A stretch of 64,000 nt of DNA from assembly GCA_025062045.1 (NCBI GenBank), contig JANXAF010000001.1:267256-331255 (forward strand), in the 5' to 3' direction. This DNA is from Thermodesulfobacteriota bacterium. Lineage in GTDB: Bacteria; Desulfobacterota; Syntrophorhabdia; Syntrophorhabdales; JANXAF01. The translations under genes were made by a program, and so were the position numbers. This document shows positions 28,890 to 56,606 of this stretch, one piece after another; the first letter of the stretch is position 1, and the number at the start of each line of letters is the position of its first letter. The notes under the pieces were generated by a model, which saw only the letters and a list, made by a program, of their open reading frames with translations, made no database searches and was not told where the DNA came from.

Positions 28890-29621
28890 CTATAGATACT
28901 CCTTTTCAAGCTTGTAAAATATACCGTATTTGAGACTCGAAACAAAAATAAAGTCAGGATCCGTTCTTGCTCCAAGCATCCTGGAGATTGAATAAATTTT
29001 AGTCTTTTCCCTTATGGTATCGTACTTATTTAGGCAAATTGCGTATCTTTTGCCAGATATCCGTCTTACCATCCCCTTGCACACAATAGATACAAATCTC
29101 TCTTCATCGATTACGCTTTCATCACTAAATCTTTCCATCTCCTTTAAAAGTTCCCACCGGAAAACAACGTCTTTCACCTTTTTTCCCAGACCATCAAGTC
29201 CACAGATAACTATTACAAAATCAGACGAAGGGGGGATTACTGGTTCATGCTCAGCACAGTATTTTAGCGGCCTTCCTTTTGCTCCATCTCCCTCGACAAA
29301 AATAACATCATAAAATCTTTTTAGCTTCGCTAAAGTTTCTTCTGATACGGAGTGCAATTTTCCATCTTTGAGTTCCCCTCCTATCCTTAAGAGAGGTCTA
29401 AGACTCAATAGTTCTTCGGTTAGCTGACTCTCGAGTAGGTAGGGCTCTTTTGCGAGAATCTTTGTCGTCGTGGTCATTACAACCGAAAACCCTTTGTCCT
29501 TAATTTCCTTAGAGGCACATTCTATAAGGGTAGTTTTTCCGCCAGCCCCTATGACAGTTATTAACTTGTACCCGGAAAGAAGTGAAAAAAGATCCTTCAC
29601 CCTTTTTTGGTGAAAGATCAT
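28890..29621 (-). CDS. yqeC: YqeC-type P-loop protein (selenium-dependent hydroxylase accessory)
   Basis: The 243-residue protein has the Walker A-like GAGGKTTLIE at residues ~25-34, TTTTKI, VEGDGAKGRPLK and PPSSDFVIVICGLDGLGKK, the YqeC family pattern. YqeC is linked by genome context to maturation of selenium-dependent molybdenum hydroxylases; the biochemical activity is not established. It is the last gene of the rplC-queD-folE2-lipoprotein run, and its presence fits the selenoproteins elsewhere in the window. Confidence 0.75.
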   Translation of the reverse strand: MIFHQKRVKDLFSLLSGYKLITVIGAGGKTTLIECASKEIKDKGFSVVMTTTTKILAKEPYLLESQLTEELLSLRPLLRIGGELKDGKLHSVSEETLAKLKRFYDVIFVEGDGAKGRPLKYCAEHEPVIPPSSDFVIVICGLDGLGKKVKDVVFRWELLKEMERFSDESVIDEERFVSIVCKGMVRRISGKRYAICLNKYDTIREKTKIYSISRMLGARTDPDFIFVSSLKYGIFYKLEKEYL

Positions 29622-38340: not shown

Positions 38341-38368
38341 ATTATAACTTTGTAAAAAGCAATGTCAA
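38341..38368 (-). promoter_or_regulatory. strong promoter of phoBR
   Basis: Minus-strand TTGACA (38363-38368) and a perfect TATAAT (38341-38346) with a 16-base spacer, giving 12/12 consensus bases. The -35 overlaps the stop codon of the upstream amidohydrolase gene. It predicts high constitutive phoBR expression. Confidence 0.8.
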
Positions 38369-39252
38369 CCTCGGCCAAATGTTCGAAGCATACTCAACGG
38401 ATTCTCGCTTATACACGTTTCTATAAGTTCTGCATCGAATCCTGCCTCTATTAATCTTTTAGCGCAAAGAGAAAGCGGTGCGTCACCTCCCTCGAGTCTT
38501 TTTTTCTTTTTGTTGTTTTTCAAGGTGCCGCGAAAAGAATCCGAAACGAGAATTATCCGGTCATTTTTTTTCATTCGGAAGACAAGTTCAATCGTTTTAA
38601 TATCTAGATGGTTCAGGTCCCCTATCACCTCAACATAAACATCCCTTTTTAAAAGTCCGAATCCGGCAATCCCTACGTTTCTGTGGTGGAAAGGTTTCAT
38701 CGCATTAAAGATATGGGTTATTAACCGGGCACCATTTTTATACGCCTCTTCCGCCTCTGTATATGTAGCCTCGGAGTGGCCCATACTCACAATGATTCCC
38801 TTTTTTGTAAGAAGCTTAATGAGCCTCATTGCACCATCAAGCTCCGGTGCGACCGTTATGACTTTCACTACATCGTAGAAACCTTCCAAAATCTCTTCCA
38901 ACTTTTTTTCATCCGGTTTTAGAAAAAACCTTCTATCCAGGGCTCCGCACCTTTTCTCATTCAAAAAGGGTCCTTCAAGGTACACACCTAAGATCCTGGC
39001 AGTATCAGAATAAGACGAATCTTTTCCAAGATAGTCCATCGCCTTTTTTATAACCTCCATGTTTTGACGCATCCTTTCTATGGGACCAGGATAGACTGCA
39101 AGAAGAATGTTACGGGTTCCGAAAGAGAAATGAGTCTTTGCGATTCTTAAAATCTCTTCGGGCGATGTAGTATCCGTACTTAGCCCTAGAATTCCATGTG
39201 TGTGGATGTCAGTGATCTCTAAGTCCTTTTGGCCCTTTCCCGAAAGAAAAAC
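38365..39252 (-). CDS. NagA-like amidohydrolase (compact), start codon not canonical
   Basis: The frame matches the barrel of N-acetylglucosamine-6-phosphate deacetylase: DIHTHGI (metal HxH at 39196-39204), YLEGPFLNEKRCGALD, MGHSEATY, THIFNAMKPFHHRNVG and VSDSFRG. The N- and C-terminal beta-sandwich parts of NagA are both absent, so this is a compact barrel form of about 295 residues. The first ATG (39070-39072) lies after the HxH motif and would give a 235-residue protein without metal ligands. Upstream the frame stays open to a stop at 39274-39276 but contains no ATG, GTG or TTG. A GGAGGTG site (39261-39267) points 8 bases downstream to a GTT codon at 39250-39252, used here as provisional start. 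Possibly degraded or sequence-errored. Confidence 0.6.
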   Translation of the reverse strand, partial: VFLSGKGQKDLEITDIHTHGILGLSTDTTSPEEILRIAKTHFSFGTRNILLAVYPGPIERMRQNMEVIKKAMDYLGKDSSYSDTARILGVYLEGPFLNEKRCGALDRRFFLKPDEKKLEEILEGFYDVVKVITVAPELDGAMRLIKLLTKKGIIVSMGHSEATYTEAEEAYKNGARLITHIFNAMKPFHHRNVGIAGFGLLKRDVYVEVIGDLNHLDIKTIELVFRMKKNDRIILVSDSFRGTLKNNKKKKRLEGGDAPLSLCAKRLIEAGFDAELIETCISENPLSMLRTFGRG

Positions 39253-39254
39253 TC

Positions 39255-40103
39255 TTAGGCCACCTCCTTCTCTTTATCCTTTCTTAATATCCTTTTTTCT
39301 TCGGGAAGGGGTGGAGGCACAGGAACACCAACGAGTTTTAAAACGGCTTTGAATTTAGGAGGACATACATCAAGGCACGTTCCACACTTTACACATTTTT
39401 CCTGATCTATTATATGGACCATCCCTTTTTTGCTGTCTATTGCTTCAACAGGACATCTTCTCGCACACGCCATGCATGCATGGCATCTTTCAGGATCTAT
39501 GTAGTAAGATGGAACATCTCTCAAAAGCGACTCGATCTCTTCTTTTGTGAAGAAGCTTTCCCACTTTTCAGGTGAGTTTTTATCGAGTCTCGTTTTGAGT
39601 TTTTCCCTCTTTTCAATCTTTATGTAGGGGATAAGCTTCATCACTCTCTCTATCTTTTCTTTAAACTCCTCATCTGAAATCTTTTCTCCTATCCCGATAG
39701 GTCCAAGTTCCCTTATCTTCGATACCATTTCGTTAACTGTCTCTGCAAAATACTGACCCATGCTGGCGTTCATAAACTCGATTCTCAATCTTTCAGGAAA
39801 TATCCCTATGTTCTCCATTATCCTTTTTGCAAGAAGAGTCATAGTGAGAGCATGGTAGTTTCCATGGGTTATGTAGTTACATTCGTCAAGCCTACAACCA
39901 GCTATATAGACACCGTCTAATCGGTTAAGAAAGGCCCTGAATATGAAGGTTAAATCGACCCTTCCTGCACACATAATCCGTATTATCCTTATATCAGGTG
40001 AGTACTGCAGCCTGGAAACTCCAGCCATATCCGCTGCGCCGTACCCTCACCAATGGCAAAGGAAAGCAAGAATTTTAGGTCTAAATTTCCCTGGGTTTTT
40101 CAC
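39255..40103 (-). CDS. MvhD/BamF-like iron-sulfur protein with selenocysteine
   Basis: This 282-residue protein accepts or passes electrons between HdrA and a partner. GTG at 40101-40103 is preceded by AAAGGAGGTGA. Codon 19 is an in-frame TGA (40047-40049) inside CHWUGYGAADMAGVSR; MvhD proteins have CxxC in that position ([2Fe-2S] ligands), so TGA is read as Sec. Then follow RIMCAGRVDLTF and AGCRLDECNY (further ligands), ending the MvhD domain at ~residue 140. A C-terminal ferredoxin domain has CHACMACARRCP and CVKCGTCLDVCP (~205-255). In Geobacter the equivalent BamF also carries selenocysteine. Starting at the first ATG after TGA (40028) would remove the N-terminal cluster motif. Last but one gene of the bam-like operon, 26 bases after hdrA. 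Confidence 0.85.
40007..40037 (-). promoter_or_regulatory. candidate SECIS element of the MvhD/BamF-like gene
   Basis: Downstream of the TGA (40047-40049) the mRNA can form GCAGC/GCTGC and, nested in it, CTGGA/TCCAG with loop GTT, the loop starting 28 bases after UGA. An alternative is CAGC/GCTG with a 7-base loop. The 5' side carries an 8-base bulge, so this is the least clean of the three. Confidence 0.4.
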
Positions 40104-40129
40104 TCTATCTCACCTCCTTTAAACCCTCT

Positions 40130-43100
40130 TTAAGATGCCACCTCTTTTACCTCTTCGAATACGAATCTTTCAGGATTTGCCGCATCGATCTGTGCGAACA
40201 ACTGCTCGTCCTTAAAATGTTTTAGCTGAATAGCACCGGTCGGACATTTGGAATTACAGAGCCCACACCCTTTGCAAAGAACAGGGTTCATCTTTGCCTT
40301 TTTCCCCTGCTTAGTCTCGATTATCTCTATAGCACCGTATGTACAAACTTCGCTACACGCTCCACATCCTATGCATCTTTTCTCATCGACAACGCACACT
40401 GAACCGGATGCCACAACCGTATCATGGGATATGAGCGTTATTGCCCTTCCTGCGGCGCCATAAGCCTGGCTTATCGCCTCGTTTATGAATTTCGGATAGT
40501 GGGCGAGTCCGCAGAGATACACACCGTCTGTACCGAAATCTACAGGTCTTAGCTTCACGTGTGCCTCTTTGAAGAAGTTATCGAGGCCCAGTTGCAAATT
40601 AAAGAAGGAGGCGATCTCTTCATTCGTTGAGGGAGCCACAATAGCCGAAGCAAGTGAAACTATATCTGCATCTATCTCCAAATATTTGTCGAGTATAGGC
40701 TCGAAGACTATGACTTTTAAGTACTCTTTCGCTCCTTCCCTCACGACTCTAAGAGAAGGTTTTCTTTGAGGTTCGTACCTTATGAACCTAATTTCCCTTC
40801 TTTGGGCTTCCCTATAATAGTCTTCCTTAAACCCATAAGTCCGCATATCCCTAAAGAGGATATAGATATCAACATTCGGATTTATCTCCTTAAGCCATAG
40901 CGCATTCTTTACCGATTCTGCACAGCAGACCCTCGAACAGTAATTTCTCTCTTCATTTCTCGATCCAACACACTGGATCATGACTACTGTATTTGCTTTG
41001 AGAACCTTTTCGTCCTTTTTCGCTATGAGCTCTTCGAGTTCCAAGTTCGTAAAAACTTTATCTGACTCTCCGTACATGTACTCATTTGGTTTCAGTTCCT
41101 CCGCACCTGTTGCGATGATCGTGGCACCATGTTTAATCTCGAACTCTCCCCTCTCAGATTCAATCTTTGTTACAAAGTTCCCAACATATCCTGAGGCAGA
41201 TATGATTTTCGAACCCAAAAAAACATGTATACGCGGTTCGCTATAGACTTTCTTTATCAGATCTTTTAGATAGGCCTGGACATCCATACCTTCGAGGGTG
41301 TAATAGATCCTTCTCGCTATCCCTCCCAGCTCTTTCTCCTTCTCGATAAGAAAGACTTCAAAACCTTGGGACGCGCAGCTTATGGCGCTTGTCATACCCG
41401 CAATCCCTCCTCCTACTACGAGCACCCGCTTATCAACAGGTAGTTCGAACTCTTCAAGAGATTCCAAAAATAACGCTCTCGCTAAGGACATCCGCACAAG
41501 ATCCTTAGATTTTTCGGTGGCGTCCTCTTTTTCCTTTGAGTGCACCCATGAGCAGTGCTCTCTTATGTTCGCAAACTCAAAATAATACTGGTTCAATCCT
41601 CCTTCCCGCAAAGAATCCCTGAATGTTGGCTCGTGCGTTCTTGGTGTACAGGCGGCAACTACAACTCTATTGAGATTGTATTCTTTTATAGCCTCCATTA
41701 TCTGTTTTGTCGATTCCGTCGAGCATGAGAAGAGTTGGCCAGCCACATGCACGACGTAAGGAAGTTTATTGGCATATTCTATGACGGAGGGCACGTCCAC
41801 GACGCGCCCTATATTTGCCCCTCAGTAACAGACAAAGACACCGACCCGCGGTATTTCGTCTTTAACATCCTTTTCCGGAGGATAGATCCTTCTCTTTGTA
41901 AGCTTGCCTCTACGGTAATTTAGCAGCTCCCCACACTTGGAGGCAGCCCCGCTTGCACCGAAGACAGCCTCTGGAATATCTAGCGGACCTATGGATGCCC
42001 CACATACAAAGACACCTGGCCGGTTCGTCTCAATAGGTGAAAATGGTTGGGTTTTTACGAAATCGTGCTCGTTTAGCTCAACTCCTAACTTCTGAGCAAG
42101 GCTTCTCACATTCTTGGGGGGACAGAGTCCGACAGCGAGAACGACCATTTCGAATTCTTCCTCCTTCACCCCCTCCGTTGTCGAATACCTGATCGTTATG
42201 TTGTGTGTTGAAGGGTCCTCCCGCACTATGTTAACGAAGCTTCTTATAAACCTCACTTTTGGTAAGCCTTCCGCCCTCTGATAAAACCTCTCAAAGTCCT
42301 TTCCGTACGCCCTTATATCGTTGTGAAAGACCACACATTCTGCATCCGGATTATGATCTTTAGTGAGGATTACCTGTTTTTGGGTATATGTGCAACAAAC
42401 AGCAGAACAGTAACTTTTACTTCCCTTGACCAGATCCCTAGAACCTACGCATTGGATCCATGCTATCTTGTTTGGGTGCCTAAGATCTGAGGATCTTTTT
42501 ATCTCACCCTCGTAAGGTCCTGTGGAACTTAGGATTCTCTCATAGTCCATGCTGGTCACAATATTTTTGTACACCCTATATTTGTAGTCCCTTCTTAAGC
42601 GCGGATCATAAGGATCAAAACCCCACGCAATTACTATGGCGCCGACATTTATATCCACTTTTTTTGGCCTGTCTGTGAAATCTATAGCATTATGCTTGCA
42701 AACCGCCTCGCATATCTTGCACTTCTTTTCTTTGAGGTAGAGACAGTTCTCATCGATGTACGTGATAAGCGGGATTGCCTGTGAAAAGTATATGTGTATT
42801 GCCTTGTTTTTAGAGATCTCTTGGTTGAAAGGATCCGGAATTCTGACAGGGCAATAATCAACACAGGCACTGCATCCAGTGCATTTGTCTTCCCTTATAT
42901 ACCTTGGCTTTTTAAGTATCGTTACCGTAAAGTCGCCTGCCTCACCCTCTACATGCTCGATCTCTGTGTAACTTAGAACCTTTATGTTTGGATGCCGGCC
43001 GACCTCGACCAGCTTAGGGGAAAGTATTCAGATAGAACACTCATTAGTGGGGAATGTCTTGTCTAGTTGGGCCATATGGCCGCCGATGGAAGGGGCACTG

Positions 43101-43249
43101 TCAACAAGAAAGACTTTGAACCCTGAATTAGCCAAATCTAAAGAAGCCTGAATTCCGCTAATGCCCCCTCCTATGACAAGCACATCTGCATAGTCTTCCC
43201 TGTCAACTGGTGGTCTTATTTTTGGCATCTCTAAAATCTTTCCATCCAT
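40130..43249 (-). CDS. hdrA: tandem HdrA-like flavoprotein (BamE type) with two selenocysteines
   Basis: One frame of 1039 residues runs through two TGA codons. N-half (1-~460): FAD motif GGGISG (27-32), [19 protein letters not shown]74 where HdrA has CSxC, ferredoxin [11 protein letters not shown] and CKICEAVC, and [23 protein letters not shown]-half (~466-1039) begins like a full HdrA: VFVCYU476[13 protein letters not shown] (normally CHCG), [14 protein letters not shown] motif [10 protein letters not shown] (~610), [19 protein letters not shown] and ferredoxins [11 protein letters not shown] and [11 protein letters not shown]. Both TGA (43028-43030, 41822-41824) are in phase with all conserved blocks and followed by hairpins. 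Normal HdrA distributes electrons in flavin-based bifurcation. Without Sec insertion the gene would look like three fragments. Confidence 0.88.
41789..41809 (-). promoter_or_regulatory. candidate SECIS element for HdrA Sec476
   Basis: Starting 13 bases after the TGA, GGGCGCGTC pairs with GACGTGCCC (9 pairs, one G:U) around loop GTG. The loop begins 22 bases after UGA, the same distance as in the first element. Confidence 0.6.
42994..43013 (-). promoter_or_regulatory. candidate SECIS element for HdrA Sec74
   Basis: Starting 15 bases after the TGA, GCTGGTC pairs with GGCCGGC (7 pairs, two G:U) around loop GAGGTC. The loop begins 22 bases after UGA and contains GGTC, as in the E. coli fdhF SECIS, where the GGUC loop begins 19 bases after UGA. 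Confidence 0.65.
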
Positions 43250-43262
43250 TGATGCCTCCGGT

Positions 43263-44051
43263 TTATCTGAACTTTATTCTTTCAGGATTCGAAAATATTG
43301 AAAATCCGTTTTTTTTTGCGTGACCAATCAAAGTGATACCGAGATTTTTTGCGTGATCGACTGCACCCTCTGTCGGGGAACGCCTGCTCACAACTAAAGG
43401 AACACCGAGCTTTGCTCCCTTAAGGATCATCTCTGAGGAAACCCGTCCCGTTGTAATTAGAATCATCTCCTCTATCCGAACATTACTTTTTAAAGCCTCG
43501 CCTGCGAGTTTGTCGAGAGTGTTGTGCCTCCCAATGTCGTCCGCCACAAAGACAAGATCTTTTGATCGCGCAAGGGCTGAGGTATGGATCCCACTTGCCT
43601 GTCTTCGTTCCTCAACGTATCCTGTGAAATTCTTTATAGCTTCTACGAGTTCATCCGCAAAGAAACAGATATCCGAATCCACCTTTTTAATCTCTTTTTC
43701 GAAGATTGCTCCTCCACCCAATCCCACAGGTACCGTCCTTCCTTTTGGTGAAAGGGAATTAGCTCCCAAAATCTCCACATCAACTTCGTTTTTATCGTAT
43801 GACCAGACCATCTTTTTTAGATCGTCAAGTCCAGAAATGAACCCCTCCAGGTACAGATACCCAATGACTAAGAACTCAAGCTTTATGGGAGTACAAAGGA
43901 TATTCACCAGTTCAACGCCGTTAATTTTAAGTTTTAGCTTCTTTTCTCTAGGGATTGTTGCAAAGCCTTGAGAAAGATCACCTTCAAAGAAAAAATCACA
44001 TGGAACGTTTATCGTTTTTTCTTCCACCTTCGTCGTCTGGATTGTGCTCAT
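43263..44051 (-). CDS. fdhD: FdhD-like protein lacking the CxxC pair
   Basis: FdhD transfers sulfur from IscS to the Mo/W cofactor of formate dehydrogenase. This 262-residue homologue has the family core: [68 protein letters not shown] (in two pieces) and NPERI. Where E. coli FdhD has CGVCG this protein reads GLGGGA, with no cysteine, so sulfur relay by the usual residues is not possible. It is embedded between the BamD-like and HdrA genes (ATGA overlap upstream, 13 bases downstream), suggesting a role in tungsten-cofactor handling for the AOR-type subunit. Confidence 0.82.
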
Positions 44052-45199
44052 ATAACCTCGTCTAGAATTTCAGCTATATCCTTTACCTCAATTCTGTCGC
44101 TCAAATTCATTACCAGTCTCGAGTCCTCGAACGCCGTTATGCAATACGGGCATGATGTAACGAGCTCTTGAGCTTCAATCTTTGCAGCTTCTTCAATCCT
44201 TAAGTTTGAGAACCTCTCCTCCTTTGGGGTTTCCATCCACACTCTCCCTCCCCCCATTCCGCAACATAGGCTGTCTTCCCTTGAATCTTTTAATTCCACA
44301 AGCTCAAGTCCCGGGATAGACTTAAGGATCTCTCTCGGCTCGTCAAATATTCCGTTATGTCTACCCAAATAGCAGGGGTCATGATAGACAACCCTTTTTT
44401 TGTACTCTTTTTTTATTTTGAGTCTTCCGTTTAAAAGAAGTTCGTATGCGACCTCCGATAGGTGGAGCACCTCAAAGTTAACTTTTAATTCTGGATATTC
44501 ATTTTTGAATGTGTGGTAGCAATGCGGTGAGGAGACTATGATTCTTTTCACGCCGCTATCCACAAAGGCCTTTATGTTTTCCTTAGCTAGGCGGATAAAA
44601 AGATCCTCATTTCCGGATCTCTTAATGCTCTCACCGCAGCAATTCTCTCTTTGTCCCAGGATTCCAAAGTCAATCTTTGCCTTGTTAAGAATATTGACGA
44701 CCGATCTTGCCACCCTTTTCAATCTAGGATCGTATGAAAGGTAACAACAGGTAAAGTACAGATACTCGGTCTTGTCATTATGCTCTTTTACTGATAATCC
44801 GGAAGCCCATTCATTTCTTTTCTGCCTTTCTTCATTGAAAGGATTTCCTTGCCACTGGAGTCCCTGAACTATCGACCTTATAGGCTTTACTGGACCAGGA
44901 AATATTCCATATTTGGTGGCTATCCTTCTTAAAGCGACCATATCTTCTATCTGCTTCACATCTCGAGGGCATATAACCGGGCATCTACCACACGTTGTGC
45001 ACTTCCATATTTCTTCCTTTTCTACCTCGCTAAGTCCGAACGTAGCCTCGCGAATAACCTTTCTTACACTGAAATTCGAAACCTCATTCCAGGGACAAAC
45101 AGTATCGCACTTCCCGCACTGGAAGCAGTTCGTTACAGCTCTTCCTCCGCACTCTTTTATCTCATCTATTACTTCCTTGAAAGGGGCTAAAGTCTCCAT
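44048..45199 (-). CDS. HdrD/BamD-like iron-sulfur subunit with two CCG domains
   Basis: The 383-residue protein starts with two [4Fe-4S] motifs, CFQCGKCDTVCPW and CTTCGRCPVICP (residues ~25-82). Two CCG domains follow: YFTCCYLSYDP...NCCGESIK and HDPCYLGRHNG...LCCGMGGG, which in HdrB/HdrD bind the noncubane disulfide-active clusters. It begins 2 bases after the ferredoxin gene and overlaps fdhD by ATGA. In Bam complexes the equivalent is BamD, linking the BamBC catalytic unit to the HdrA-like subunit. Confidence 0.87.
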   Translation of the reverse strand: METLAPFKEVIDEIKECGGRAVTNCFQCGKCDTVCPWNEVSNFSVRKVIREATFGLSEVEKEEIWKCTTCGRCPVICPRDVKQIEDMVALRRIATKYGIFPGPVKPIRSIVQGLQWQGNPFNEERQKRNEWASGLSVKEHNDKTEYLYFTCCYLSYDPRLKRVARSVVNILNKAKIDFGILGQRENCCGESIKRSGNEDLFIRLAKENIKAFVDSGVKRIIVSSPHCYHTFKNEYPELKVNFEVLHLSEVAYELLLNGRLKIKKEYKKRVVYHDPCYLGRHNGIFDEPREILKSIPGLELVELKDSREDSLCCGMGGGRVWMETPKEERFSNLRIEEAAKIEAQELVTSCPYCITAFEDSRLVMNLSDRIEVKDIAEILDEVI

Positions 45200-45201
45200 T
45201 T

Positions 45202-45753
45202 TTACTCTTTTCCACCTAGTCTATATACGGCGTTGAGGACTTTGTCCCAGCCATATCTGTCTATGAGCGCCTGGACGCCAGTATCTATCTCATCAGGCTT
45301 TGTTTCCTCTTCAACTTCTTCCTCCTTCTCCTCATAGGTTATGGCATCCACAAGACACCACTTTGCGCACATAGGCTTATCGAGGGGTGGATCGCTCTCA
45401 CACATGTCGCATTTAAGTGGAAGGCCAGTGTCGGGCTCTTTAAAGATGTCTCTCGAAGGACAGGAGGCTCCACAGAAACTACACACGCTTATTCCATCAC
45501 CGTAGCTACTCTGTGGTCTCTCTTCTAAAAAGTATACAGGTCTTCCCGCGCACTCGGCACTCGTATAAAAACTCGATTTTACTGGAACAAAAACGTTTTT
45601 CAGCTCATTCCTGAAAACGTGGATCCTGGATCTTGCGAGGTTGACACTACTGAACTTGGGATTTGCGTGAAATGCAGCACAAGCAACTTCGCAAGCTTTA
45701 CAGCCCATGCATTTGTTAAGATCGATTTTTAGAACTTTGACCTTCCTTTTCAT
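45202..45753 (-). CDS. BamC-like ferredoxin subunit
   Basis: The 183-residue protein has an N-terminal cluster motif CMGCKACEVAC (15-25), a middle CSFCGASC, then CDMCESDPPL and CAKWC, enough for about three [4Fe-4S] clusters. It closely follows the AOR-type gene (10 bases) and precedes the HdrD-like gene, the bamB-C-D order. The C-terminal 45 residues begin with an acidic stretch (EEKEEEVEEETK). It probably delivers electrons to the tungsten subunit. Confidence 0.82.
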   Translation of the reverse strand: MKRKVKVLKIDLNKCMGCKACEVACAAFHANPKFSSVNLARSRIHVFRNELKNVFVPVKSSFYTSAECAGRPVYFLEERPQSSYGDGISVCSFCGASCPSRDIFKEPDTGLPLKCDMCESDPPLDKPMCAKWCLVDAITYEEKEEEVEEETKPDEIDTGVQALIDRYGWDKVLNAVYRLGGKE

Positions 45754-45763
45754 TTCAACCCCT

Positions 45764-47728
45764 CTATTCGCTCAGTATTCCCCGTTTTACAAAGTCTTCA
45801 TAGACATAATCAAGTCCTAGCTTTTTAAGTGTCTCCTTTGTTGGTATCCCTTGGGAATTCCATCCTCTGTATTTGTAGTACTCATCCATAAGCTTCTTCT
45901 CATATTCGGGGAACCTTTTTTTCCAGTGATCCTCTGGAGGTTTTTCATCCTCTCTTCTAAGGCCCCTCCTTATATTGTTAGCCCTCACCAAGTTTCTGAC
46001 CCGTGTAGCAATCTTCCAGAGTTCATCTTCATCAACCTCGAATCCCGCACCGTATGACACAAATAAAGGAAGATTGTGAATGTGATACGGAGGCTTTATC
46101 GGGAATGATGATACACCAGCACAAAGCCCTAATGAATCATCTATGTAATGCATAGTCTCCTGCCATTCCACAAGCTCACACACAAGGTCAGGGGGAGGCC
46201 AGAACGGAAAAGTCTTTCCCTCTTCGCCCCACTCCAATATGAACTGCTTAAACCTTTCCTCTTTTCCCGTTGGTATCTGTATCCAGTCCTTTACAAACTC
46301 CTCTCTCCACTCCCTCGGTAGAGGCGCCTGTGGTATCTGTCCTTCTATTTGCGTTATATTTGCCTTTTCCCCTGTAGACCACATTATGTAATAAATCGGG
46401 TTTAGCATTCCCAGTTTTATCGGTACCTGCTCGTGTTTCTTTATCGTGTTATGGTCAAAGGCTTCCGCCCCTCGCCCAATCTTTCTTGCAGCCCAGTAGA
46501 CTCCGTCCGCTAAAACGTCTCCTATACCTTCTCTTCTCACTATTCTTTCCAAAAGCCAGAAAAACCTTTCCTTTTTATCCTTTGGAAAACCTTCCATCTC
46601 ACTTTCTGTAAGTATTCCATTCTCGTAAAGTTCTATGGCAAATGCCATGACCTGAGGTGCAGTAAAGCCGTCAACACCGTAATGCTGCGCCCGAGATAGT
46701 ATCTGGAAGCCAAAGTCAAGATCGTCGACTTCGGCCGCCATAACGTAAGTCAGCTTTGTAAAGCATTTAAGTATATAGGTTGGATATCCTGGAACCTCTA
46801 TTATTCCGGCGCACCTTACAGGGCAATTGTAACAGCTAATCAGCCTCTTTCTCACACTTTCCATCGTTTCTGCCCATCTTTTTTCTATATCCTTATTCCA
46901 GAACCCTTTTCTCCTGTACCTCGCATGACCCCAGGCGAAGCTATCGAGGTGCCATTCCTCATCGTGGAGAGCCATCTCCTGGGGTGAACCGATGTAAGCC
47001 AGTATTGGAGGTACACCAGGTATCGGATTGTTCAGCCTGTACTGTATGTACTCTAGTACTTTATTACATTCATTTATGAACTCTAAAGGTTTTGCCACAT
47101 TTATGTCCTTTGTTCCCCTAACAGCCACTGCCTTTAGTTTTTTGTCACCCATTATCGCTCCGAGACCGAGTCTACTAGCGCTTCCTCTGTGGGTTTCAAT
47201 GGATGCGAAGTAAACCCTGTTTTCGCCGGCTAGGCCTATTGAAACGATCTGAGCCCTGGGTTCGCCAAGCTCCTCTCTTATTGTTTCCGCAGTCTCATAG
47301 GTGCTCTTTCCTTGGAGGTGTCTGGCATCTCTTATTTCGACTTTGTCGTTGTTTATCCATATGTAGACCCAGTCCGGGGCTTTTCCTTTTACAACTATCT
47401 TGTCGTATCCAGCGAATTTGAGCTCCGGAGCCCAGTAACCTCCCATTATGGAAAAACCGAAAAGAGAGTTTTGAGGAGAAATTGAGGTTATGATTGTTCT
47501 ATTTGCAGCGGGAGCCGGAGTACCGACAAGGAGTCCCGCGCTAAATATGAGAAGGTTTTCCGGGGAAAAGGGTTCGACATCCGGTGAAATCCTATCCCAA
47601 AAGATCTTAGCGTTTGTGCCTAAACCCCCTAGATACACTTGCGTTGTCTCTGGGTCAGTCTGAACTTTCTCAATGTTTCCAGTGGAAAGATCTATCTCAA
47701 GGATATAACCGGTTTCCGCGTACCTCAT
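45764..47728 (-). CDS. bamB: BamB-like tungsten oxidoreductase (class II benzoyl-CoA reductase active-site subunit type)
   Basis: The 654-residue AOR-family protein begins MRYAETGYILEIDLSTGN and is collinear with BamB of Geobacter. Residues E251, H255 and H260 (in SPQEMALHDEEWH) and C322 (in LKCFTKLTY) fall at the same numbers as the active-site residues recalled for the Geobacter enzyme. [4Fe-4S] ligands are C299, C302, C306 and a Cys near 536. BamB reduces benzoyl-CoA to the 1,5-dienoyl-CoA. It heads the operon. No benzoate-CoA ligase, dienoyl-CoA hydratase or BamGHI genes are in this window, so another aromatic or cyclic acyl-CoA is possible. A weak TTGACT/TAGAGA promoter lies at 47785-47807. 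Confidence 0.85.
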   Translation of the reverse strand: MRYAETGYILEIDLSTGNIEKVQTDPETTQVYLGGLGTNAKIFWDRISPDVEPFSPENLLIFSAGLLVGTPAPAANRTIITSISPQNSLFGFSIMGGYWAPELKFAGYDKIVVKGKAPDWVYIWINNDKVEIRDARHLQGKSTYETAETIREELGEPRAQIVSIGLAGENRVYFASIETHRGSASRLGLGAIMGDKKLKAVAVRGTKDINVAKPLEFINECNKVLEYIQYRLNNPIPGVPPILAYIGSPQEMALHDEEWHLDSFAWGHARYRRKGFWNKDIEKRWAETMESVRKRLISCYNCPVRCAGIIEVPGYPTYILKCFTKLTYVMAAEVDDLDFGFQILSRAQHYGVDGFTAPQVMAFAIELYENGILTESEMEGFPKDKKERFFWLLERIVRREGIGDVLADGVYWAARKIGRGAEAFDHNTIKKHEQVPIKLGMLNPIYYIMWSTGEKANITQIEGQIPQAPLPREWREEFVKDWIQIPTGKEERFKQFILEWGEEGKTFPFWPPPDLVCELVEWQETMHYIDDSLGLCAGVSSFPIKPPYHIHNLPLFVSYGAGFEVDEDELWKIATRVRNLVRANNIRRGLRREDEKPPEDHWKKRFPEYEKKLMDEYYKYRGWNSQGIPTKETLKKLGLDYVYEDFVKRGILSE

Positions 47729-52126: not shown

Positions 52127-52402
52127 TTAACCGTACCTATACTGAACACCATATTCTCCGCGAGGATAACGCCAAAGAATAGCACCTTTTACACAGGCGA
52201 TCATGCATGTCCCGCATTCTAAACATCCGGAGTGCTCAACGGTTACTTCATTGGTCTCCTCGTTATACTTGTAAAGATTTCCGGGACAAACGATTAGACA
52301 GTATTTTTTTTCACAGTTACTACAAATTTCGCCCTTTATTTCAATGTGGCTTTCTCTGTCAATTTTTACTATGTTTTTGGCAAGTTTTTCCTCGACCTTC
52401 AT
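52127..52402 (-). CDS. fixX: ferredoxin-like protein FixX
   Basis: FixX is the small iron-sulfur subunit of the FixABCX electron-bifurcating complex. The 91-residue protein shows CSNCEKKYCLIVCPGNLYK and CLECGTCMIACVKGAI. The ATG overlaps the fixC stop by 4 bases. It ends the operon. Confidence 0.9.
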   Translation of the reverse strand: MKVEEKLAKNIVKIDRESHIEIKGEICSNCEKKYCLIVCPGNLYKYNEETNEVTVEHSGCLECGTCMIACVKGAILWRYPRGEYGVQYRYG

Positions 52403-53682
52403 ATCTTTTTCGCAGAAAGTAAAACCTTTATTGTCCTTAGGCTTACCATCTCCTTAATAAAAGGCCAGAGAATATCCCATGTTTTCCCTTTTGGTCCACA
52501 ACCAAAATAGGTGAGCTTTTCTAAGATCGCTGGAAACTTTTCTGGATAATGCGCGAAAATATCATCGTTATCCAAAAAATCCGGCATATGACGGAATGTA
52601 TTGAGATCTTTGAGGACAAAGCTCTCCTTTAACTTATCCGCGTATCCTTTGAGGACGCTTTCGGAAAAGTCGCCTTTGTCATAAGCCTCTTTTATGGTTT
52701 CTGCGGCGAGTATCCCTGAAACTATCGCAAAGTCCATACCACGGACCGTAAAGCCCATATTGAGCGCCAACCCAGCCGCATCTCCAACGATAAGGACGCC
52801 ATTCCCATAGAGCTTTGCGCAACCTCTAAAACCTGCCTCTGGGATTAAGTGGGCTGAGTATTCCAGAGTCTCTCCTTCACGGATGAGGGTTTTTATCTCA
52901 AACCTCTCCTTAAATCTTTCCAAAAGCTCGTACGTTTTTATTTTGGGGTAGGCGTTTATGACAGAGCTTATTTTGACGACAATCCCTAAAGAGACTGTAT
53001 CTATGTTTGTGTAGAGGAAACCACCACCGAATATCCCTTCTGTAACATCTCCTATGAAAAGGTGGGCAACGCCTTCCCGTTCTCCAACGTTAAACCTCTC
53101 ATTTATCGTGTTTGCGGAAAGCCCGATCACCTCTTTTATTCCCACGGCATAGTCGTTAGCTTTAAGCTCCTCTTTCAGTCCGAGTCTTCTCGTAAGAATA
53201 GAGAGAGCACCCTCTGCAATCACAACGACATTGGCGTAGAGCCTCTCGTCACCAACTGTAACACCATCTACCTTTCCATCAGTCATAATTAAACCGTCAA
53301 CTCTGTACTTTGGCACCACAAGGACCCCTTGAGCCAAAAGTTTTTCCGCTATGTGCTTGTCAAGCCTTCCTCTAAGTACCGTGTAGCTGTGGTTTTCGTA
53401 TCTTAGTTTTTCAGATGTGAAGTCAAAGGTTAAGGAACTATTTTTTGCAAGAAGCGTCCATCTTTCCCTCACAATTTTCCTTTCCAAAACCGAATCATCG
53501 AACATACCATCCATATATGGATAGACCGGATTAAGATATAACCTACCCCCAGTCATATTTTTTGTGCCAGGGAATTCGCCCCGTTCTAATACGAGAACGC
53601 TCAACCCACTATCCTTTAACCCGTAGGCGCAAGAAAGTCCAGCAAGGCCTCCACCCACAATTATCACATCCAGCCTTTCCAT
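52399..53682 (-). CDS. fixC: FixC flavoprotein (ETF:quinone oxidoreductase-like)
   Basis: FixC is the membrane-associated flavoprotein that takes the high-potential electron from EtfAB to quinone. The 427-residue protein starts VIIVGGGLAGLSCAYGLKDSGL (FAD Rossmann) and has NMTGGRLY, the second FAD motif GVLIVGDAAGLALNMGFTVRGMD and the C-terminal KGKTWDILWPFI, all FixC-like. It starts directly after fixB. Confidence 0.93.
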   Translation of the reverse strand: MERLDVIIVGGGLAGLSCAYGLKDSGLSVLVLERGEFPGTKNMTGGRLYLNPVYPYMDGMFDDSVLERKIVRERWTLLAKNSSLTFDFTSEKLRYENHSYTVLRGRLDKHIAEKLLAQGVLVVPKYRVDGLIMTDGKVDGVTVGDERLYANVVVIAEGALSILTRRLGLKEELKANDYAVGIKEVIGLSANTINERFNVGEREGVAHLFIGDVTEGIFGGGFLYTNIDTVSLGIVVKISSVINAYPKIKTYELLERFKERFEIKTLIREGETLEYSAHLIPEAGFRGCAKLYGNGVLIVGDAAGLALNMGFTVRGMDFAIVSGILAAETIKEAYDKGDFSESVLKGYADKLKESFVLKDLNTFRHMPDFLDNDDIFAHYPEKFPAILEKLTYFGCGPKGKTWDILWPFIKEMVSLRTIKVLLSAKKI

Positions 53683-54663
53683 CTAGATCTCTTCTTTTGC
53701 CTTTTTCAATTCTTCCTTAAGGAGAGGTAGAATTTCGAAAAGATCATCGATTATCCCGTAGTCAGCGATATTGAAGATGGGAGCATTGGGATCCGAATTT
53801 ATCGCAACGATCGTCTTTGAAGAGTCTATTCCCATTGTGTGATGAATTGCTCCGGAGATGCCACATGCTATGTATAGGAGGGGGGATACCGTCTTTCCAC
53901 TCTTTCCGATCTGCTCTTCGTAACTTCTCCACTTTGCGTCCACAACGGATCTTGAGGCCCCAACCCTTCCACCCATTATTTCCGCTATCTCTTCGAGTAT
54001 TTTAAAGTTCTCAGGAGATCTCATCCCTCTTCCGCCGCAGATTACAAAGTCTGCTTCCTCCAAAGCCACTTTCTTTTCCTCTTTCTTTTCCGATCTCAAG
54101 AACTTAATTTTAGGGTTCTCTTTTATGACCACTTCCTCCTTCAAAACCTCTCCTTTTGAACCTTTCTTGGCGAGCGGAAAACTGTTCGGCCGTACGGTTA
54201 CGACTGCTTTTTTTTCGCCTTCAAGAAAACTAGTCGATATAACCCTTCCTCCAAAGAGAGGCTTTTTGAAAAATAGGTTTCCGTCCTTCATCTCAAGTCC
54301 GGTTATGTCCGCAACTATCGCCCAGTCGAGCATACATGAAACTTTTGGGAGTAAGAACCTACTATAGCCCGTGTGAGGTCCTAAAATGAAAGAAAACCTA
54401 AATTTCTCAACAAGTGAAAATAACGCACTCGCGTAGGAGTGCAATATGAAGTCTTTGAGTCTCTCATCATCTACGACTATTACAAAATCTACATACTCTT
54501 TTAGGTCTTCGGCTTGTGATTCAACTCCGTAACCTAATAAAGCCGCATAAAGCTTAGAACCGAACGACTCCTTAAGTCTATTACCCACCTCTAAAACTTC
54601 GTACGACACCTTTCTCACACTATTATTTTTGAGCTCCACATAGGCCAAAACGTCATTTACCAT
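53683..54663 (-). CDS. fixB: electron transfer flavoprotein alpha subunit FixB
   Basis: EtfA/FixB binds the FAD that hands over the high-potential electron. The 326-residue protein has the C-terminal FAD signature GGRVGASRSVVDAKW, GKTVSPLLYIACGISGAIHHT and IVAINSDPNAPIF. The C-terminal region matches bifurcating Etf types that partner with FixC/FixX. It follows fixA by 10 bases. Confidence 0.93.
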   Translation of the reverse strand: MVNDVLAYVELKNNSVRKVSYEVLEVGNRLKESFGSKLYAALLGYGVESQAEDLKEYVDFVIVVDDERLKDFILHSYASALFSLVEKFRFSFILGPHTGYSRFLLPKVSCMLDWAIVADITGLEMKDGNLFFKKPLFGGRVISTSFLEGEKKAVVTVRPNSFPLAKKGSKGEVLKEEVVIKENPKIKFLRSEKKEEKKVALEEADFVICGGRGMRSPENFKILEEIAEIMGGRVGASRSVVDAKWRSYEEQIGKSGKTVSPLLYIACGISGAIHHTMGIDSSKTIVAINSDPNAPIFNIADYGIIDDLFEILPLLKEELKKAKEEI

Positions 54664-54673
54664 TTTTGCACCT

Positions 54674-55444
54674 CTATAAGGCCTTTGCTTCTTCTTTTAA
54701 GAGAGCCACAAGCTTTGTGACCTTTTCTTTCGGTGTTTTACCCTCGATGATTTTCACCGCTGGCCTTTTAGGTGGAGGTTCGTATCCTAAAATTACAGTC
54801 CTTGGGGAAGCAGAAATAAGGGATGTGGGCTCTATCGATGGAATCTGGGCCCTCATAGCCTTCATGACACCCGTTATGGCGGGCACTCTCGGCTCGTTTA
54901 TCCCTTTCCTTAAAGAGAAGACTGCGGGTAACTCAACCTTATAGCTTAAAAGCTCACCATCGATCTCCGAATCAACAGTCACGGTCTTTTCGTCTTCGAA
55001 TTCCATTTTCACAACCGAACCGACGTAAGGGACATCTAAACTTTCCGCAACTAGAACTCCCATTATCCCATTTTCGTCATCCATTGCCCTCTCTCCACAG
55101 AGAATCATGTCGAACCCCTCATTTTTCGCGAAGGTAGCAAGTATCTTTGCCGTATAACCTGGGTCTCCGATTCCGTATGTTTGCGCCTCTATGAGTATCC
55201 CTCTATCACCACCCATAGCTATGGCGGTTCTAAGCACTTCTTGAGCCTTTTTTGGCCCGTAACTTACGGCAACTATCTCGCAACTCTGCCATTTTTCCTT
55301 TATTCTTATGGCCTCTTCGATGGCAAACTCATCAAAGAAATTAAGACTGAATCGTTCTTCATAGTCTATTGATTTGCCATCATCCTTTATACTGAGCTTC
55401 GCTTCCGAGTCTAGGATCTGTTTAACAAAAACGAGCACCTTCAA
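54674..55444 (-). CDS. fixA: electron transfer flavoprotein beta subunit FixA
   Basis: EtfB/FixA holds the bifurcating FAD that oxidises NADH in FixABCX. The 256-residue protein has MKVLVFVKQILDSEAKL, the ETF-beta signature region EAESLDVPYVGSVVKMEFE-like (VAESLDVPYVGSVVKME) and IEPTSLISASP. It starts 13 bases after the acyl-CoA dehydrogenase gene. Confidence 0.93.
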   Translation of the reverse strand: MKVLVFVKQILDSEAKLSIKDDGKSIDYEERFSLNFFDEFAIEEAIRIKEKWQSCEIVAVSYGPKKAQEVLRTAIAMGGDRGILIEAQTYGIGDPGYTAKILATFAKNEGFDMILCGERAMDDENGIMGVLVAESLDVPYVGSVVKMEFEDEKTVTVDSEIDGELLSYKVELPAVFSLRKGINEPRVPAITGVMKAMRAQIPSIEPTSLISASPRTVILGYEPPPKRPAVKIIEGKTPKEKVTKLVALLKEEAKAL

Positions 55445-55457
55445 TTTTCTCCTCCGG

Positions 55458-56606
55458 TTATAGCTTCCCGATTATACTCCTTCCTATAAAATCCTTCAAC
55501 ACCTCGTGTGTACCCCCGCCGTATAGCAAAAATCTCGCATCCCTAAAGTACCTTTGCGGATTATATTCCCGCGCAAACGCGTTTGCCCCAAAAATCCGTG
55601 TCACTTCGTCGACAACCTTTAGACAAACCTCGGTCGCGAACATTTTTGCCTCAGCCGCAATTATCCTCGCATCCATCTTATTCTCCAATAACCATGCTCC
55701 GTAATAGACTAGAAGCCTTGCCGCATTCATAAGGGCGTCCATTTCGGCAAATTTTTCTCTTATGAGCTGATAGTTACCTATGGGCTGACCGAAGGCAACC
55801 CTCTTTCTTGCGTATTCGAGCCCTTCCTCATAGGCGGCACGTGCCAAGCCTAGTGCCATCGCACCTGTCATAAGCCTTACCTCTTCAAGTATCTCCCCTA
55901 TGTATTGCATACCCTTTCCAAGTTCCTCACCTAAAAAATTCTCGTCTGGCACCCATACATCATCGAAGATCAGTTCACCGGTTACTGTTCCTCGACAACC
56001 GAGTTTATCTATTATCTGGCCTGCAGAAAAACCGGGCATCCCTTTTTCAACTAGAAAGAAGTTGAGCCCTTTCACACCAAGAGACGGGTCGACAGTTGCC
56101 AAAACCGTGCAGAAATCGCAGATCGGCCCGTTGGTTATCCACATCTTCGTTCCCTTGATTCTCCAGCCATTTCCATCCTTTATAGCCCTTGTTCTCGTTG
56201 CGGCAAGATCGGACCCGGAATGGTCCTCAGTGAAACATATGGTGGCTATCTTTTCACCCCTCATTGCCGGATAGAGGCATCTCTGCTTTACGGCCTCACT
56301 CCCGAACCTATAAATAAAGTAGGTTCCCATAAGAATGTTCATTATGACACTCTGGGCAAATCCCACAGATCCTCTCGTTATCTCTTCGTAAAATATCATG
56401 CACATGATTTTATCCGCGTTCATCCCCCCTATTTCTTCTGGATAACGAAGTCCAAGGTATCCTAGCTTCGCAAACTCTCTCCAAAGATCCCAAGGAAACT
56501 CATCTTTTTCGTCTATCTCCTTTGCCTTTGGAACTATCATTCTATCTACTGTTTCTTTTATCGTTTTTCTAAAAAATTCCTGCGCTTCTGTGAGCCTGAA
56601 GTCCAT
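55458..56606 (-). CDS. acyl-CoA dehydrogenase
   Basis: The 382-residue FAD enzyme has the standard family layout: CFTEDHSGSDLAATRTRAIKD (flavin-binding), MWITNGPICDF, RVAFGQPIGNYQLI and RDARFLLYGGGTHEV. The canonical catalytic Glu of the YEGT motif is Gly here (YGGGT). The alternative helix-G base of the QER type is also displaced, since the corresponding site reads LEEVR. The catalytic base is therefore not assigned. As first gene of the fixABCX operon it is a likely electron donor or partner of the complex. The substrate is unknown; a cyclic or aromatic-derived acyl-CoA would fit the neighbouring Bam-like genes. Confidence 0.88.
   Translation of the reverse strand: MDFRLTEAQEFFRKTIKETVDRMIVPKAKEIDEKDEFPWDLWREFAKLGYLGLRYPEEIGGMNADKIMCMIFYEEITRGSVGFAQSVIMNILMGTYFIYRFGSEAVKQRCLYPAMRGEKIATICFTEDHSGSDLAATRTRAIKDGNGWRIKGTKMWITNGPICDFCTVLATVDPSLGVKGLNFFLVEKGMPGFSAGQIIDKLGCRGTVTGELIFDDVWVPDENFLGEELGKGMQYIGEILEEVRLMTGAMALGLARAAYEEGLEYARKRVAFGQPIGNYQLIREKFAEMDALMNAARLLVYYGAWLLENKMDARIIAAEAKMFATEVCLKVVDEVTRIFGANAFAREYNPQRYFRDARFLLYGGGTHEVLKDFIGRSIIGKL

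Follow-up and report, generated by a model that had tools for sequence, protein, structure and literature searches.

The window, a 64-kb stretch of DNA (G000:C1:267256-331255) from a 1.76-Mb genome that is 97% complete, carries six genes on the minus strand between 39255 and 47728, in the order bamB-bamC-bamD-fdhD-bamE(hdrA)-bamF(mvhD) that the earlier note had read, and with intergenic gaps of -4 to +26 nt they look like one operon. That note began the operon at 38365; the operon stands, with its end at 39255, and 38365-39072 is an unrelated nagA-like gene that is truncated (without about its first 107 model positions) and is likely a remnant. The operon contains the following.

45764-47728, minus strand: bamB, tungsten (AOR-family) catalytic subunit, 654 aa
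45202-45753, minus strand: bamC, small FeS (polyferredoxin) subunit, 183 aa
44048-45199, minus strand: bamD, 383 aa, HdrBC/HdrD-like, with a 4Fe-4S dicluster plus two CCG domains
43263-44051, minus strand: fdhD, sulfurtransferase, over the TIGR00129 cut-off, between bamD and bamE and overlapping bamD by 4 nt
40130-43249, minus strand: bamE, 1039 aa, FAD/FeS protein of the HdrA type carrying two flavin modules, with in-frame TGAs at U74 and U476
39255-40103, minus strand: bamF, 282 aa from a GTG start, an MvhD/FlpD-like domain followed by a ferredoxin domain at the C terminus, with a single in-frame TGA (U19)
39318-39518, minus strand: ferredoxin domain (2x[4Fe-4S]) at the C terminus of BamF, roughly residues 196-262, akin to the BamH C terminus and a hallmark of operons lacking bamGHI

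Profile searches agree with these assignments, with AFOR domains in BamB, an HdrBC-like BamD with CCG domains, FdhD, an HdrA-like BamE, and FlpD and ferredoxin domains in BamF, and BamC, BamD, BamE, and BamF are all encoded adjacent to bamB, as is required for a class II benzoyl-CoA reductase. The fdhD gene lies between bamD and bamE in eight surveyed operons (the window and seven others); a role for FdhD in maturation of the tungsten site is our guess.

The window BamB matches the crystallized Geobacter metallireducens BamB (4z3w) over its full length at 1011 bits, with the next AOR at 226 bits, and the two are 65% identical. Residues E251, H255, H260, and C322 lie at the same numbers in both proteins, as claimed earlier, and so does E257; in class II benzoyl-CoA reductase, Cys322 is the tungsten ligand and E251, H255, E257, and H260 are zinc/proton residues, according to available passages of PMC12096430. 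A tree of 111 BamB homologues places the window protein inside the BamB group and apart from the source genome's other AORs; these are the outgroup sampled, and at their great distance they do not fix the root inside the BamB group. A plasmid search for BamB gave no match. Distant BamB-like proteins (about 30% identity) are encoded near pathway genes or a compact operon at L221:9920-11818 and L214:16337-18223.

The bamG, bamH, and bamI genes are absent from all 64 kb of the window, as the earlier note had it, but are present elsewhere in the source genome, in a second operon on contig C2.

L024:6182-16476 (G000:C2), strand not given: second bam operon, IclR-type regulator plus bamB2-C-D-E-F-G-H-I

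BamB2 shares 57% identity with the Geobacter protein and is without the loop bearing E251, H255, and E257 (W, E, and D are found instead), as are six related sequences; loss of this loop is common to a distinct clade, and BamB2 probably has another substrate. Close to this operon, genes for a BadF/BadG-type acyl-CoA dehydratase activase (L024:1615-2394), a glutaryl-CoA-dehydrogenase-like protein, and a biotin carrier lie near one another.

A total of 111 distinct bamB loci were scored for bamGHI and for ferredoxin motifs in BamF, with operons counted as GHI-less when at least 2.5 kb downstream contained no G, H, or I, and as GHI bearing when any of these was downstream. The window and 25 other operons have no GHI module by this measure, and BamF has two ferredoxin motifs in all 26, compared to none of the 40 GHI operons; four further operons with the BamF fusion have shorter or complicated flanks. 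Carriers of compact loci include Desulfospira joergensenii DSM 10085 (L141), whose locus has no adjoining bamD and which is not known to use benzoate, and Peptococcaceae bacterium CEB3 (L104). One candidate for a GHI operon with a BamF-ferredoxin fusion, L098, was rejected, the fusion belonging to the second of two tandem operons on this contig, a compact one that directly follows a GHI one. The earlier proposal of a compact Bam version is supported, and with GHI missing from the operon the window operon is filed as a variant rather than a typical class II benzoyl-CoA reductase. The accompanying idea that electrons enter at a different point is plausible, given that the extra BamF ferredoxin domain appears exactly where GHI is absent.

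The fused domain is nearest to the C-terminal ferredoxin domain of BamH in 30 of 30 cases, with best matches of 48 to 76% identity over 74 to 120 residues, and the window domain scores 117 bits against its best BamH versus 72 bits against the NuoF-like protein on contig C8 of the source genome. Of 36 readable BamH proteins, 35 carry this C-terminal domain themselves; the C2 BamH of the source genome does not. The BamF and BamH sides of a ferredoxin-domain tree are split by one branch (99/91, from 87 columns and with the bootstrap not fully settled), which fits a single fusion. With a gene order of F-G-H, a deletion that began at the end of bamF and reached into bamH would yield such a protein, and BamF may have kept the BamH ferredoxin domain when the rest of the GHI module (G, I, and the flavin core of H) disappeared. 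The compact operons do not form one clade, a grouping rejected for BamE (AU p 2e-8) and unsupported for BamB, where they are interleaved on the tree; from their scatter in BamE trees, the compact module has apparently passed from one lineage to another. The fusion is widespread and apparently undescribed, with no description found in open-access passages.

Benzoyl-CoA pathway genes, proposed earlier as a genome-wide search, are not absent from the source genome, in which Had scores 459 bits against a cut-off of 339. Neither outcome that the earlier note set as refuting, a BamB-like protein among non-Bam AORs or a genome devoid of benzoyl-CoA pathway genes, is seen. Had sits in an SDR-Had-hydratase cluster without Oah, the adjacent hydratase scoring below the TIGR03189 (Dch) cut-off, and no Oah over the cut-off was found in the genome. 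A candidate for its place is encoded on contig C6.

L026:9593-10573 (G000:C6), strand not given: Oah/BadI-like protein, 326 aa, with a zinc-ribbon-like tail

This protein is 90% identical to proteins in genomes of distant families (G007 and G111), and because the G007 counterpart stands in the place of Oah, with Had on one side and the hydratase on the other, it probably replaces Oah (the BamA/Oah marker) in the source genome. The lack of Oah over the cut-off, with a substitute proposed from this 90% identity, and the low score of the hydratase beside Had count against reading the window operon as a compact benzoyl-CoA reductase. Relatives carry full SDR-Had-Oah-hydratase clusters, and these are directly upstream of a compact-type bam operon in G097 (the contig breaks off within bamF), with SDR-Had-Oah also near the compact operon of G169. 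Action of the complex on a different cyclic or aromatic acyl-CoA, such as a substituted benzoyl-CoA, or mainly oxidative running in syntrophy, is unlikely but the best surviving of the alternatives: it would suit the missing Oah, the presence in G111 of a compact operon with neither Had nor Oah over the cut-off, the variability of position 255 within the BamB family, and the six bamB copies of unclear assignment in D. gibsoniae (available passages of PMC4148979), whereas the window BamB retains all of the named benzoyl-CoA reductase residues, Had is present, and relatives tie compact bam genes to Had and Oah. Another cyclic acyl-CoA substrate, as suggested in the earlier note, is less likely for the window BamB than for BamB2.

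The GHI genes of the C2 operon could also act in trans, which counts against a compact reductase; the window operon would then belong to an ordinary class II benzoyl-CoA reductase with BamGHI supplied from C2, much as BamB-F and BamG-I are in separate clusters in the draft genome of strain NaphS2 (available passages of PMC2988823). We rate this slightly lower than a change of substrate. BamH alone fails to part Bam from other NuoF-like proteins, so BamI was used as the GHI marker, Bam-type matches being at least 53% and other near-full-length matches at most 47%. In G024, a 98% complete genome of the same family, BamI gave no match at 1e-20 and BamH none above 46%, yet the genome has a compact operon as well as Had and Oah over the cut-off. 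Genomes G045, G053, and G169 likewise have compact operons as well as Had and Oah, and lower-grade BamI matches only; in G152, where BamB, Had, and Oah are present, BamI again has no match, with the bam operon cut by a contig end so that the architecture is not visible. The C2 BamH, moreover, is without the C-terminal ferredoxin domain, and the ferredoxin fusion of BamF tracks GHI absence, both of which argue against supply in trans. The converse arrangement, in which C2 encodes the actual benzoyl-CoA reductase and the window operon plays an auxiliary part, is improbable: C2 has a full B-I subunit set, but its BamB2 is without the E251/H255/E257 loop, and G024 has only bamB2 and bamC2 at the equivalent place, with no D-I adjoining.

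A further feature of the operon is its three in-frame TGA codons, two in bamE and one in bamF, each followed by a SECIS-like hairpin.

43028-43030, minus strand: UGA/Sec codon U74 of BamE (CSIU); HdrA structures have Cys at the aligned position
42994-43013, minus strand: SECIS-like hairpin GCUGGUCG-AGGU-CGGCCGGC, 17 nt after U74, kept in relatives
41822-41824, minus strand: UGA/Sec codon U476 of BamE (CYU), C-x-C in HdrA
41788-41810, minus strand: SECIS-like hairpin 14 nt after U476, with a 3-nt loop (GUG), shared with G342, which has Sec, and not with G024, which has Cys (TGT)
40047-40049, minus strand: UGA/Sec codon U19 of BamF (CHWU)
40012-40024, minus strand: SECIS-like hairpin CUGGA-GUU-UCCAG, after U19

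The hairpin folding z-scores, -0.8 to -2.3, are modest or weak alone, and the source genome has a tRNA-Sec(UCA); with the tRNA, a hairpin after each in-frame UGA, and Cys in homologues, reading as selenocysteine is supported. Among 73 near-complete BamE proteins surveyed, 52 have one TGA, 2 have two, and 19 have none; U19 of BamF is present in 65 of 73. The second BamE codon, U476, is seen only in the window and a sister genome, G342, and a second TGA in G320 was rejected as an independent case, being the terminal stop. Of the earlier claim of three selenocysteines per complex, the three codons hold and "per complex" does not, the count being three per BamDEF set; similarly, the extra selenium that it proposed applies to U476, with U74 and U19 ordinary for Bam. 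Selenocysteine in BamF is found at Geobacter loci L129 and L135 as in the window, and we take Geobacter BamF to be a selenoprotein. Nonsense mutation in a decaying operon, suggested by the way gene calling with table 11 breaks bamE and bamF into pieces, is very improbable, as the same TGAs recur in relatives (U74 in most bamE genes and U19 in most bamF genes), each is followed by a hairpin, tRNA-Sec is present, and the frames are otherwise intact. The window also codes for a YqeC-family selenium cofactor biosynthesis protein (28890-29621), suggesting further selenium use.

Judging from sequence, the product of the window operon is rather probably a compact, BamGHI-less subtype of the tungsten-dependent (class II) benzoyl-CoA reductase, which would receive its electrons from ferredoxin by way of BamF. 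BamBC would reduce benzoyl-CoA to 1,5-dienoyl-CoA at the tungsten cofactor, and reduced ferredoxin would dock at the ferredoxin domain of BamF and pass electrons through the FlpD domain (U19) to the HdrA-like BamE (U74 and U476). BamE alone would bifurcate, sending the low-potential electrons to BamBC and the high-potential ones out to an acceptor by way of BamD (HdrD-like); the complex would lack the NAD(P)H-linked step that BamGHI provides in Geobacter, with the BamF fusion in place of that module. A quinone exit via futalosine menaquinone was considered and rejected, the source genome having no family match to futalosine menaquinone genes. Upstream of the bam operon lie FixABCX-like genes that might supply electrons to Bam.

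52127-56606, minus strand: possible electron-supply genes, ferredoxin-like (52127), FixC-like (52399), EtfA/FixB (53683), EtfB/FixA (54674), and acyl-CoA dehydrogenase (55458)

In some other compact operons (L217, L219, L229, and L149), bamF is followed by a gene for an ∼670-aa membrane FeS oxidoreductase-like protein and etfBA, a possible electron exit or supply. More broadly, and tentatively, we propose that there is a widespread minimal class II subtype that reduces the ring by HdrA-type bifurcation alone, with no NAD(P)-linked module, that its BamF-ferredoxin fusion is of apparently single origin, and that the BamE electron hub gained an extra selenocysteine in one lineage, a joint statement to which we give a little less than an even chance.

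The means by which class II benzoyl-CoA reductases power a -622 mV reaction with no ATP are unsettled, and double bifurcation has been proposed, with one step at BamGHI and one at the HdrA-like module (available passages of PMC9304861 and PMC12096430). If the compact reading is true, a natural BamGHI-less form would part the two bifurcation steps and show whether the HdrA-like half suffices, and genome surveys demanding bamGHI or bamA/Oah may miss aromatic degraders.

The closest known system is BamBCDEFGHI of G. metallireducens (BamBC, PDB 4Z3W-4Z40), which shares with the window the B-C-D-E-F order, a BamB at 65% identity, and residues E251/H255/E257/H260 and C322; the window operon differs in having no BamGHI, a ferredoxin domain on BamF, two selenocysteines in BamE, and an inserted fdhD. 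Bam clusters of sulfate reducers are alike in the reported selenoprotein BamE of Desulfococcus multivorans (PMC5109826), the separation of B-F from G-I in NaphS2, and several BamB paralogues, and the available passages on these strains make no mention of a BamF-ferredoxin fusion or a second BamE selenocysteine. The benzene degrader ORM2a has a bamBCD-fdhD-EFGHI-bamR cluster, with FdhD listed between BamD and BamE and the proteins detected (available passages of PMC13101534); it resembles the window in placing fdhD with Bam subunits and differs in keeping GHI, so fdhD is no mark of the compact form. Finally, the methanogen HdrABC-MvhD bifurcating complexes include HdrA and MvhD, with whose known structures BamE and BamF can be aligned, although the window module is coupled to a tungsten ring reductase rather than to a hydrogenase or heterodisulfide.
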